64,000 nucleotides of DNA, from assembly GCA_903842345.1 (NCBI GenBank), contig CAIMLR010000036.1, positions 124,001 to 188,000 of the forward strand. The letters run 5' to 3'. Position numbers and translations under genes: made by a program. The notes under the pieces were generated by a model. It ran no database searches and had not been told where the DNA came from. It was given only the letters and a program-made list of their open reading frames with translations. The stretch is from an uncultured Myxococcales bacterium (GTDB lineage Bacteria > Myxococcota_A > UBA9042). This document shows positions 12,453 to 16,276 of the stretch, piece by piece (position 1 is the first letter of the stretch; every line of letters starts with the position of its first letter).

Positions 12453-13460
12453 TCAGCCCAGTTGGTCCAGCAACGCTTGATCCAGCATTGCCAGCACTTG
12501 CGCGGCGAGCTGGGTCTTTTCGCCCGTCAGCGTCGCGCCGGCAGCGTGCTCATGACCGCCGCCACCAAAATGCTGGGCCACGTGGCCGATCTTCACGGCG
12601 GCCTTGGATCGCAGGGACAGCTTCCACTCGCCGGCATTGCGGCCGGGCTTGAGCTGCATCGCGATGAGCACGCCTTCGATGCCGACGAAATGCGGAATGG
12701 TCTCGCCAATCGCGTCACTCTCCAGGTTCAGCCCCGCGCCGATCTCCGGACCCACGGCCGCCCACGCGATGCGATCGCGGCTGGCAAACTGCATCTGCGC
12801 GAGCACCCGGCCAAGGAGCAGCGTTTCGTCGCGGGTCCGGCTGGCAAAAAGCGCTTCCTGCACGGGATTCGCGTCAAAGCCGGTGTCCAGCAGCTCAGCC
12901 GCCACGCGCAACGTCTCTGACTGGTTGCGCAGAAAACGAAACGAACCGGTGTCGAAGCTCATCGCGGCGTAAAGCGCGCGCGCCGCGATCGCGTCGATCG
13001 GCCAGCCGAGCGCCTTCAACAGCCGAAAAACCAGCTCGCCGCTTGAAGAAAACTCCGTCGCGACGCAGCCTTGCAGGTCCAGATCCGGCTTGACCGCGTG
13101 GTGATCGACGACCCACACGTCCACGCCTTGACGCCGCAGCGCCTGCGCCGGCCGCCCGGCGCGATCGACTTCATGCGTGTCGAACAGCAGGCCAAAATCC
13201 GCGCCGAGGAGCTGTGCCGCATCGCGGTCAAAATGGCCAATATCGCCATCGGGATCGAGCCACGCATGGCGCTTGGGCAGCGGATCCTCGTTCACGACCA
13301 GCGCAGTTCGCCCCGTCGCGCGCGCGGCTCGCACAAAGGCCAACTGGGAACCCAGACCGTCCGCGTCGGGCCCCTGGTGCGTCGACAACAGGATGTGCCG
13401 CGACGCCTGGATACGCGCCAACAGCCACGGTTCAAAAGGCACGCCACTCAAACGCCGCAT
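12453..13460 (-). CDS. DHH/DHHA1 phosphoesterase (NrnA-like)
   Basis: A 335-residue cytoplasmic phosphoesterase. Metal-binding motifs of the DHH family are in order: GPDADGLGSQ near residue 30 (motif I), a FDTHE segment (motif II), VVDHHAV (the DHH signature, motif III) and a later Asp in the MSFDTGSF segment (motif IV). The C-terminal DHHA1 domain carries FGGGGHEHAAGA. NrnA-type enzymes degrade short RNA or DNA oligonucleotides and may dephosphorylate pAp; related enzymes cleave cyclic dinucleotides. Length and the absence of fused PAS/GGDEF or CBS domains favour the stand-alone NrnA type, but substrate preference cannot be read from sequence. It is the promoter-proximal gene of the DHH, Bfd-like and SWIM unit. 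Confidence 0.83.
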   Translation of the reverse strand: MRRLSGVPFEPWLLARIQASRHILLSTHQGPDADGLGSQLAFVRAARATGRTALVVNEDPLPKRHAWLDPDGDIGHFDRDAAQLLGADFGLLFDTHEVDRAGRPAQALRRQGVDVWVVDHHAVKPDLDLQGCVATEFSSSGELVFRLLKALGWPIDAIAARALYAAMSFDTGSFRFLRNQSETLRVAAELLDTGFDANPVQEALFASRTRDETLLLGRVLAQMQFASRDRIAWAAVGPEIGAGLNLESDAIGETIPHFVGIEGVLIAMQLKPGRNAGEWKLSLRSKAAVKIGHVAQHFGGGGHEHAAGATLTGEKTQLAAQVLAMLDQALLDQLG

Positions 13461-13556
13461 GGAACCTCGTTGACCGGGTAACGGTCGATGCAACAGGATC
13501 GGTTGGCGGCGGCGCGGTGTCAACGCGAATCGCTTCCGTCCGTCCGGCGCTGCACC

Positions 13557-13562
13557 TATACT
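13557..13562 (+). promoter_or_regulatory. Candidate -10 element for the exbB/exbD-like pair
   Basis: TATACT lies 76 bases before the start of the proton-channel gene, in the divergent spacer shared with the DHH gene. No convincing -35 hexamer sits 16-18 bases upstream (the best is TTCCGT), so this is a weak promoter call. Confidence 0.3.
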
Positions 13563-13637
13563 AAGACGCTGGGAACGTTTCGCCGTGCGCAGGTGTTGCA
13601 GCCCGGGAATGAATTTGCGCAGGGTAGGCGAGCAGAC

Positions 13638-14330
13638 ATGAACCTCGATCAGTTGCGGCATCTTTTTGAGCTCGGTGGCCCGACGATGTACGCCATCGCT
13701 GGACTGGGCTTTGTCGGTACCGCGATTTTCGTCGAGCGCGTGCTGGCGGTCCGCGCCCTGCTGACGCACGTGCGGTCGCTGGATCGGCGAATTCGCGATG
13801 CTGTGGTCGCGGGCAATCTGCCGGCCGTCGTGTCGCTGTGTTCCAAGGCGCCCGCGGGACTGTCGCCCGTGCTGATGCGCGGCGTGGAAGCGGCGATCCG
13901 ACAGGCGCCGCGGGACGACATTCTGGCCGAGATGAGCCGCGATGGCCGGCGCCTGCTCCTGCGCCTGAAGCGCGGCCTGGGGATGTTGGCGACGCTCGGC
14001 TCCATGGCGCCGTTCACCGGGCTGTTCGGCACCGTGCTCGGCATCATGCAGGCGCTCAAGAACATTGGCCAATCGGGATCTGGCGGCTTGGACGTCGTCG
14101 CCGGCGGCGTGTCCGAAGCGCTGGTGAGCACCGCGGGCGGTCTGGCGGTGGCGCTGGTCATCGTGCTGCTGCATCAGTTCCTCAAGGCGCAGCTGCAAAA
14201 CGCCGTGCTGGAAGTCCAGGTGCTTGTGGAAGATGCCGCCGACGATTTGGCGCGCCTGCCGCCGCAAGCGCTGATTACCGCGATGGGCAACCAGAATCGC
14301 TCGGCTGGAGATGGCAATGGCGCGGTTTGA
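13638..14330 (+). CDS. MotA/TolQ/ExbB proton-channel family protein
   Basis: A 230-residue inner-membrane protein with three predicted transmembrane segments: residues about 13-33, a central one containing the conserved GLFGTVLGIM motif, and one near 165-185 (TAGGLAVALVIVLLH). It forms the pentameric proton channel that couples the proton-motive force to outer-membrane work (TonB uptake or Tol-Pal constriction) or to gliding-type motors in myxobacteria. The partner ExbD/TolR-like gene overlaps its 3' end by 20 nt, which favours translational coupling. No TonB, TolA, TolB or Pal gene is adjacent, so the downstream pathway is undetermined. The start at ATG 13638 is chosen because the longer frame adds Arg/Gln-rich non-membrane sequence. 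Confidence 0.85.
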   Translation: MNLDQLRHLFELGGPTMYAIAGLGFVGTAIFVERVLAVRALLTHVRSLDRRIRDAVVAGNLPAVVSLCSKAPAGLSPVLMRGVEAAIRQAPRDDILAEMSRDGRRLLLRLKRGLGMLATLGSMAPFTGLFGTVLGIMQALKNIGQSGSGGLDVVAGGVSEALVSTAGGLAVALVIVLLHQFLKAQLQNAVLEVQVLVEDAADDLARLPPQALITAMGNQNRSAGDGNGAV

Positions 14331-14775
14331 CTGGGGCACAGCCGATGATCTGGAAGGCAGCGAGTCGGTCGACCTGAACCTGACTTCGCTAATCGACGTG
14401 GTGCTCGTGCTGCTCATCATCTTCATGGTGTCGACCGCGGCGGTCGTCACGGATCAGGGCCAGCGCGATGCTGATGCCGCGACCGCGCTCGATTTGCAGC
14501 TGCCGTCGGGCATGGTGCCGAGCGACCAGCCGCCGGCGCAGGATCTGGTCGTGAAGATGACCAAGGACGGCGCGCTGTACAACGCCGGCGCCGCGACGGA
14601 TCCCAAGACGCTGGAGCAGGACGTCATCAACCGGCTGACCAAAGAGCCGAATCTGCAGGTGCGCATTGAGGCCGATCAGGAACTGAAGTACCTGCAGGTC
14701 GCCGAACTGCTGAGCAAGCTGCAGGGACTGGGCGTCAAGAACGTGTCCTTGGGCATGGGCGGCAAACCGAAATAG
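14311..14775 (+). CDS. ExbD/TolR family biopolymer transport protein
   Basis: A 154-residue protein with a short cytoplasmic N-terminus, one transmembrane helix (about residues 26-44, LIDVVLVLLIIFMV) and a periplasmic domain. The essential membrane aspartate of the family is present (LTSLIDVVLVLL). It pairs with the ExbB/TolQ-like subunit, as shown by the 20-nt overlap of the two genes. The periplasmic segment includes the regular pattern of an ExbD/TolR peptidoglycan- or TonB-contacting fold (VVKMTKDGALYNAG, then VRIEADQELKYLQVAELL). Whether it serves TonB, Tol or a motility machine cannot be decided here. Confidence 0.85.
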   Translation: MAMARFDWGTADDLEGSESVDLNLTSLIDVVLVLLIIFMVSTAAVVTDQGQRDADAATALDLQLPSGMVPSDQPPAQDLVVKMTKDGALYNAGAATDPKTLEQDVINRLTKEPNLQVRIEADQELKYLQVAELLSKLQGLGVKNVSLGMGGKPK

Positions 14776-15503: not shown

Positions 15504-15626
15504 GGCGGGTCCTGATCGGCTGCACCTGGGGATGATGCGAATTCACCGTAGGCCGCCTCAAGAGGCGAGTCAAGGCGCGACGGGGCGTGCGGCGCGGGTG
15601 CGGGAGACGGCTGGCCTCGCCCGCCC

Positions 15627-15662
15627 AAAAAGCCAAAAGCCGCCGCAGTTTCCCGCGACGGC
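15627..15662 (-). terminator. Rho-independent terminator of the ribosomal operon
   Basis: On the minus strand, GCCGTCGC and GCGGCGGC (15662-15655 and 15646-15639) form an eight-pair stem with one G-U pair and an eight-base loop, followed at once by TTTTGGCTTTTT (15638-15627). It lies about 170 bases past the rplI stop, the expected end of the rplY-to-rplI transcript. Confidence 0.75.
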
Positions 15663-15746
15663 CTTTGGCCATTCTTACCAGAGCTGCGATTGCCCTCAGC
15701 TGACGATGGCGCGCTCAGTTCGAGTCGAGCCGCGCGTGCGCCCACA

Positions 15747-15789
15747 GCAGCCCGACCGAGCGTACTTGACGTACGCGACCGAGGGCTGC
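15747..15789. repeat. Nested symmetrical element (two inverted repeats around a direct repeat)
   Basis: The 43-base element reads outward from its centre as follows: a TTGAC loop (15766-15770), perfect inverted arms GCGTAC/GTACGC (15760-15765, 15771-15776), a direct repeat GACCGA on both sides (15754-15759, 15777-15782), and perfect outer inverted arms GCAGCCC/GGGCTGC (15747-15753, 15783-15789). As RNA it would make a hairpin with a symmetric six-by-six internal loop. It lies 40 bases past rplI. It has no U-tract, so it is not a simple terminator. Function unknown. Confidence 0.7.
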
Positions 15790-15829
15790 GAGGACGTAAG
15801 CCGCGGATCGGCCGAAATGCGCGATGCCA

Positions 15830-16276
15830 TCAGTCCGCGGACTCGATCGTCAAGGTGATCTTGGCCACCACGTCGTTGTGCAGCTTCGCGGTAATCGCGA
15901 ACTCGCCCAGCGCTTTGATGTTCTCCGGCACGATCAGATCGCGACGGTCCAGGTTGAAGCCCTGCTCGGCCAGCAAATCCGCGATTTCGCGCGAAGTCAC
16001 GGTACCAAACAGACGGCCGTCTTCACCGGCATGGCGCTTCACGGTCAAGGTCACACCGTTGAGCTTCTCCGCGACCGTCATGGCTTCAGCTTTCGCCTTG
16101 GCCAGACGCGACGCGACCATCGCTTTCTTGTGTGCCATCTCGCCCACGGCGCGCTCGTTGGCGAGCATCGCCAGGTTGCGCGGCAGCAGGTAGTTGCGGC
16201 CAAAACCGTCAGCAACCGTCAGGATATCGCCAATTTTGCCCACGTTGGGCACGTTTTCACGCAGAATGACTTTCAT
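15830..16276 (-). CDS. rplI: 50S ribosomal protein L9 (bL9)
   Basis: A 148-residue ribosomal protein with the canonical N-terminus MKVILRENVPNVGKIGDI and the conserved GFGRNYLLPR segment, joined by a long helix to the C-terminal rRNA-binding domain. The protein binds 23S rRNA near the L1 stalk and stabilises frame maintenance. ATG 16276 has AAGGAG six bases upstream; that ribosome-binding site overlaps the stop codon of rpsR, which couples the two. It is the last gene of the rplY-pth-rpsF-rpsR-rplI operon. Confidence 0.97.
   Translation of the reverse strand: MKVILRENVPNVGKIGDILTVADGFGRNYLLPRNLAMLANERAVGEMAHKKAMVASRLAKAKAEAMTVAEKLNGVTLTVKRHAGEDGRLFGTVTSREIADLLAEQGFNLDRRDLIVPENIKALGEFAITAKLHNDVVAKITLTIESAD

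Follow-up and report, generated by a model that had tools for sequence, protein, structure and literature searches.

A probable family of non-autonomous palindromic mobile elements with a strand-specific conserved core in Myxococcota

Short palindromic repeats are commonly regarded as transposon debris. A 43-base nested palindrome behind a ribosomal protein gene of an uncultured Myxococcales bacterium raises the question of whether some bacterial hairpin repeats are retained for their structure. We analyzed the 64,000-nucleotide stretch of DNA containing this feature (hereafter, the window, to which all coordinates without a locus label refer) together with related genomes. A preliminary description of the feature, placed at 15747-15789, had offered three readings: a protein-binding palindrome, a transposed repeat family, or an RNA structure at the end of a transcript. 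On the best reading of the data, the feature belongs to a new family of palindromic, non-autonomous mobile elements, whose conserved core is strand-specific and unusual. We assign a probability of roughly 0.7 to the feature being the tip of one copy of such a MITE/REP-like element of the Myxococcota, a reading that includes the inferred spread of the family and retention of its fold. The mobile nature of the palindromic repeat is well supported by dispersed copies, tandem arrays, and empty rplI sites; the copies share a single rod-shaped fold, which is best on one strand.

The element behind rplI

Every described part of 15747-15789 was found letter for letter on the + strand. The outer arms GCAGCCC (15747-15753) and GGGCTGC (15783-15789) form stem P2. 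The direct repeat GACCGA (15754-15759 and 15777-15782) supplies the two sides of a symmetric internal loop with tandem G-A steps around CC. The inner arms GCGTAC (15760-15765) and GTACGC (15771-15776) enclose the five-base loop TTGAC to form P3 (15760-15776). The symmetry is indeed beyond chance: the 64-kb window contains the nested pattern a single time, and 20 order-1 Markov windows held no instance of it, even when the direct repeat was not required. Relative to dinucleotide shuffles, folding of the 43-mer gave z-scores of -5.5 (+ strand, RNA) and -4.3 (- strand).

As the limits of a symmetrical tip, the original coordinates hold; as those of the element they are too narrow, the 43-mer making up just the apical half of an imperfect hairpin of greater length. 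Comparison of the filled site with empty sites in four sister genomes, together with a family model match at 15717-15820 (102.9 bits), places the whole inserted element of 125 nt at 15705-15829 on the + strand, the strand with the conserved fold. The 5' strand of the basal stem P1 runs, to the limit of the model, from 15717 to 15734 (model columns 1-18) and is followed by a 5' conserved box (15735-15746; here CGTGCGCCCACA, consensus AGCGCGCCCGCA) that lay outside the search pattern and is near-invariant in alignments A1-A3. Beyond P2 lies the 3' conserved box GAGGACGTAAGCC (15790-15802), which was part of the search pattern and has variants. The 3' strand of the basal stem (15803-15829, from the model and the empty-site comparison) abuts the stop codon (15830-15832) of rplI, which encodes ribosomal protein bL9 (15830-16276, - strand). 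The element thus sits directly behind the last gene of an apparent rpsF-rpsR-rplI operon on the - strand (gene names assigned by us), in agreement with its reported position past a ribosomal operon.

Alignment of the flanks indicates how the element came to be there. In four sister species of the same genus (G001-G004), rplI ends alike, and a terminator-like hairpin follows within ~20 bases of the stop codon. In the window's genome (G000), 125 other bases follow the stop before the sequence shared with the relatives begins again (GTCAGC) and leads into the same hairpin; this hairpin with its T-tract (15626-15671, - strand) was recognized by eye and was not listed by the terminator scan. The element is therefore present in G000 and absent from G001-G004, and the window copy is probably an insertion, repeated loss in the relatives being less likely. 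A search with the family model over 27 rplI loci, including the window's own, and over the window itself found no genome but the window's with the element downstream of rplI; a phylum-wide model search recovered the arrangement once more, in a genome of another family (G160, locus L220). Comparison of the filled site with the four empty ones revealed no target duplication, TNA or otherwise. The window copy also has no GAGGGTGT-like end and no terminal inverted repeats (TIRs), its ends being formed by the paired basal stem only. These absences count against our best explanation.

Copies, ends, and mobility

The preliminary description had proposed searching the genome for mismatched copies and looking for compensatory changes in the arms. 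Searching with the exact 43-mer and up to three mismatches returned the window copy only; a similarity search of the same genome found a second copy at G000:C4:89673-89739 (91%). There, the outer arms have changed together (GCAGGCC/GGCCTGC versus GCAGCCC/GGGCTGC in the window), and compensatory changes recur in the family alignments. Beside this second copy (L031, ~1200-1450), repeated CCAGCGGC(C/T)AGCGAAGCGAC units lie between a tRNA-Glu gene and the element.

Wider searches extended the family well beyond this genome. A loose pattern run over 52 genomes of the class found nine copies, all within the five genomes of the genus. A pattern built on the second conserved part matched at least 115 stretches in GTDB contigs, 80 of which were taken as loci, and gave no match in viral contigs. 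A covariance model built from 18 copies found the element in at least 14 of the 52 class genomes (E ≤ 0.01) and at least 40 of 377 phylum genomes (E ≤ 0.001), both lower bounds because filtering was strict and no more than ten candidates were scored in each genome. One model search took in 100 loci. From the 73 elements extracted, 49 distinct ones passed the parser; inserted, truncated, or altered ones (among them L052, L057, L064, L118, L127, and L134) failed it, and L068 was left out of all counts as a chance coding match. Within the genus, 19 of 23 copies in the five genomes share no flank with another genome. The proposal of a transposed repeat family is thus upheld by the second copy, the many copies in relatives, the empty sites, and target duplications in one branch, described below; a lone copy with unconserved arms, which the preliminary description had named as the contrary outcome, is not what we found.

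Copies are also clustered at some loci. Head-to-tail arrays with a period of ~116-120 bases lie behind one gene (L224:2442-2778 and L225:2737-2961), and L132 and L133 hold inverted pairs separated by a few hundred bases. Contigs of MAGs titled 'Klebsiella pneumoniae' (L062, L096, and L111; records CAMDBH01...) carry the Myxococcota element in copies resembling those of a genome from the window's family (G005); either a mislabeled record or a mixed bin is probable. Since blastn of the window copy matched no plasmid and no phage record, a phage or plasmid origin was rejected. A literature search, with subscription journals mostly outside its reach, recognized no report of this family.

Evidence on the mode of mobility comes from one branch. 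A TNA triplet is duplicated around the paired ends of 20 of 95 elements; one of these (L160) is poor, and the other 19 are convincing: they pair at 11-14 of 14 end positions and measure either 121-122 or 177-180 bases. Control triplet classes in the same scan gave 2-12. TNA duplications are a trait of an IS5-type subgroup of elements, and PF13340 is a marker of IS5-type transposases. The TIR-bearing branch has the attributes by which MITEs are recognized, namely terminal inverted repeats, a target duplication, and an autonomous partner with the same ends. Its commonest end, GAGGGTGT..., was present in five of the six genomes searched and occurs as well on hairpin elements that lack the family core (G048). 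In G016 (L297), an identical 15-base end, GAGGGTGTAGCCAAA, stands ahead of an IS5-type transposase gene that is broken (PF13340, E 1.6e-25), and a complete 1267-base IS (L301) in G002, one of the sister species, has the related GAGGGTGTTTACATT ends, a TTA duplication, and a PF13340 match (E 4.7e-24). At L280 and L281, hairpin elements with different ends adjoin directly at TAA, as if inserted into each other's edges.

IS5-type mobilization is therefore supported for the TIR-bearing branch; for the rest of the family, we infer it. The family would have spread in trans by IS5-type transposases, and the branch of the window copy may have lost its TNA/TIR-type ends or never had them. The mere presence of the transposase domain is a different matter: with PF13340 in 7 of 23 element-positive and 5 of 19 element-negative genomes, the former show no enrichment. 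The domain was therefore rejected as a correlate of the element, and its lack of enrichment counts against our best explanation.

Fold, strand, and genomic position

Every copy folds into a rod comprising basal stem P1, a conserved internal region, P2, the symmetric loop, P3, and a terminal loop. The internal region sets the 5' box against the 3' box, with an AA bulge, a single A, and C-A and G-A mismatches. The symmetric loop is GACCGA/GACCGA or GAGGGA/GACCGA and is open to two interpretations, in which two tandem G-A steps flank either CC/CC or two G-C pairs. In most copies, P2 and P3 together have 13 pairs, split 7+6 or 6+7. The invariance of the 3' box in A1-A3 is at least partly by construction because the box was in the search pattern. 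Copies found with the model vary this box and its partner too: in alignment A5, whose rows were aligned to the model and are thus biased towards structure, columns 25-115 hold C-G in 17 rows and G-C in 11, and columns 27-113 hold C-G in 25 and U-A in 3. A subfamily (L086:150-252, L130:2247-2348, and L071:5545-5647) keeps both boxes, has an AT-rich tip in place of P2 and P3, and carries AGAGCTGTCC-like ends, with a TCA duplication in L086.

Covariation was scored in A2 (all 18 elements of one type), A3 (28 of the 31 of the other type, three near-duplicates left out), and A5 (28 distinct rows); A4 and A6 do not enter the counts. Both sides had changed in 12, 18, and 26 of the 33 pairs, respectively. 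The corresponding scores were 0.294 (versus 0.119 shuffled and at most 0.070 slid), 0.322 (versus 0.101 shuffled), and 0.479 (versus 0.139 shuffled), none reached by any of 500 shuffles; given that the rows are related, these figures flatter the signal compared with independent rows. A protein-binding palindrome in double-stranded DNA, one of the original proposals, is a poor fit, since complementarity of the arms persists through changes in their sequence. Paired mutations that keep the fold, on one strand, suggest that the fold itself does something.

A locus behind tRNA-Pro provides a case example. In four of the five genus genomes, the element lies there between homologous flanks with 76-86% identity. 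The P2 arms in these species read GCCGCCC/GGGCGGC, GTGGTTC/GGACCGC, GCGGACC/GGTTCGC, and GCAGCCC/GGGCTGC, with every pair Watson-Crick or G-T. The outermost arms also covary (TTTGC/GCAAA versus ATTGC/GCAAT), and one change is uncompensated (GCGC to GCAC in G004). Arms rewritten with their pairing kept favor selection acting on the fold at this locus; the same pattern could also arise by gene conversion or by repeated insertion at a single site. Compensatory change within one inherited locus exceeds what a purely selfish repeat would predict and to that extent counts against our best explanation. The tRNA-Pro locus of the window's own genome (L256) holds a different palindrome-flanked spacer, ACGAATCC ... 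GGATTCGT, unmatched by the family model.

Several asymmetries distinguish the two strands. Across P1-P3, alignments A2 and A3 hold 62 G-T cells on the + strand versus 16 A-C cells, the equivalent of G-T on the other strand; in P1 and P2, G-A outnumbers C-T by 69 to 3. One core pair is G-T in all 46 rows. Mildly contrary is an invariant C-A mismatch at one core position, equivalent to G-T pairing on the - strand. The + strand fold is the more stable in 45 of 46 copies with RNA parameters and in 41 of 46 with DNA parameters. For the window, the 43-mer differs little between + and - strands (-24.1 versus -24.5), and the 104-mer gives -54.3 versus -50.9. These data favor the + strand of the window, which runs antisense to rplI, as the bearer of the conserved fold. 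Of the suggestion of an RNA at the transcript's end, the covarying fold is borne out, and the orientation is wrong because wobbles, G-A pairs, and energies favor the strand opposite the rplI transcript.

The position of the elements relative to genes was surveyed with our own codon log-odds gene caller rather than a standard tool; since the caller is simple and at least one of its calls in the window (12453-14339) looks wrong, all placement counts are approximate. In 33 of 85 elements, a gene that ends facing the 3' end of the element has its stop codon within 40 bases of the core. Among 77 complete cases (nine more were incomplete), gaps were convergent in 29, tandem with the element antisense in 24, tandem sense in 16, and divergent in 8. 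In the branch without recognizable TIRs, the 3' end of the element touches a stop codon in 30 cases and the 5' end, with a wider margin, in 11; between tandem genes of this branch, 20 antisense placements versus 10 sense are alone not significant. Genes touched, as named by us from their sequences, include rplI (L001 and L220), rpsT (L117, and L225 by eye), rpsI, secA, pnp, dnaE, cysS, and a SlyD-like gene. Because stop codons at the contacts have background composition (TAG in 8 of 33, compared with 102 of 386 genes), a TNA target was rejected as the cause of stop-codon contact, a failure that counts against our best explanation. In G004 (L054, contig C97), an element is flanked on one side by a tRNA-Ser gene and on the other by a partial tRNA-Ser-like stretch, an arrangement suggestive of a duplicated tRNA end.

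Within the mobile-family reading, copies at gene 3' ends may have been retained under selection for the + strand structure. Their putative role would most likely be that of a hairpin met by transcription running towards the gene from the other side. A function as an RNA processing or transcript-end element on this antisense side is a guess at mechanism, and a rather doubtful one.

Alternatives and known systems

The folded + strand could instead represent a putative new class of functional nucleic acid: either a conserved-core RNA that may be catalytic or bound by protein, or a site in single-stranded DNA. Mobile elements would have spread it through Myxococcota genomes, and behind housekeeping genes it would have become domesticated, its pairing kept under host-level selection by compensatory mutations on the strand opposite the gene. 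We regard this extension as unlikely. A closely allied rival makes the element primarily a structured RNA, antisense or in cis and possibly catalytic, that mobile elements have spread, with the boxes as a putative active or protein-binding site on a P1-P3 scaffold. Strong covariation accompanied by conserved unpaired positions, the G-T pair shared by all 46 rows, a strand difference that grows with RNA rather than DNA parameters, and the kept pairing at tRNA-Pro are what this account explains well. Against it, searches with Rfam covariance models matched no family (one gave only a tRNA, another nothing up to E 5), and a known RNA family was rejected on that ground. Neither a conserved promoter nor a transcript of its own was seen; the + strand runs antisense to the gene it abuts, with nothing obvious to transcribe it where the genes are in tandem; and the TNA-duplicated branch behaves like ordinary MITEs. 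Although it survives best among the competitors, this rival too seems improbable.

Integron attC sites lie behind genes, fold on the bottom strand, and vary in their arms while keeping their structure; they carry R boxes and form cassette arrays. The present element, which likewise stands behind stop codons, folds on the strand complementary to the gene, varies its arms around a constant structure, and left no target duplication at rplI, might by analogy be a single-stranded DNA recombination site whose recombinase recognizes structure rather than sequence. However, no consistent R boxes (RYYYAAC / GTTRRRY) were seen by eye in the listed ends, the neighbors are housekeeping genes rather than cassettes in arrays, and one branch has TNA duplications; we regard an attC-like site as quite improbable.

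Mobilization as a REP by a REP-associated tyrosine transposase (RAYT) is more improbable still. As described in PMC3733652, REPs are extragenic repeats of 20-40 bases with a GTAG or CGTC tag, rare in divergent gaps, near gene 3' ends, and sometimes paired or clustered. Our elements share the extragenic palindromic nature, the avoidance of divergent gaps, the proximity to gene 3' ends, and the occasional pairing or clustering of the REPs described there, but they are ~120-180 bases long and show no consistent GTAG or CGTC tag by eye among the 71 end pairs listed. Nor do they go together with Y1 transposases: Y1_Tnp matched in 18 of 23 element-positive versus 12 of 19 element-negative genomes. 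RAYT was rejected because five of the 23 (G001, G004, G061, G088, and G273) gave no Y1_Tnp match. Weakest of all, an intrinsic terminator of the rplI operon would account for a stable hairpin directly behind rplI and is scarcely credible, given that the stem has no T-tract on the gene strand (as the preliminary description had noted of the U-tract), the terminator scan reports none at the element, and the sisters' terminator-like hairpin is still present downstream.

The family of mobile palindromes makes the question of structural retention testable, as its many pair changes reveal the folding strand and its core is conserved across families of the phylum. The tRNA-Pro locus, with arms rewritten in four species and pairing intact, offers a test case for repeats kept for their structure, and annotators gain a model for a feature absent from Rfam. 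Among known mobile repeats, IS5-type MITEs resemble the TIR-bearing branch, which has the same ends and TNA duplications as IS5-type genes, and differ from the window's branch, which has neither; some MITEs with the ends of the TIR-bearing branch have no conserved core. ERIC/IRU, NEMIS (Correia), RUP, and YPAL are, as reviewed in PMC2229807, palindromic, non-coding, mostly intergenic repeats of ~100-200 bases that form long stem-loops, with target duplications in some and with both empty and filled sites. The family described here matches that account in size, in its non-coding palindromic stem-loop, in its mostly intergenic position, in the target duplications of some members, and in its empty and filled sites. 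Unlike the repeats as described there, it inhabits other hosts, has other, GC-rich sequences with TNA duplications in one branch, and possesses a conserved internal core and covariation that singles out one strand.
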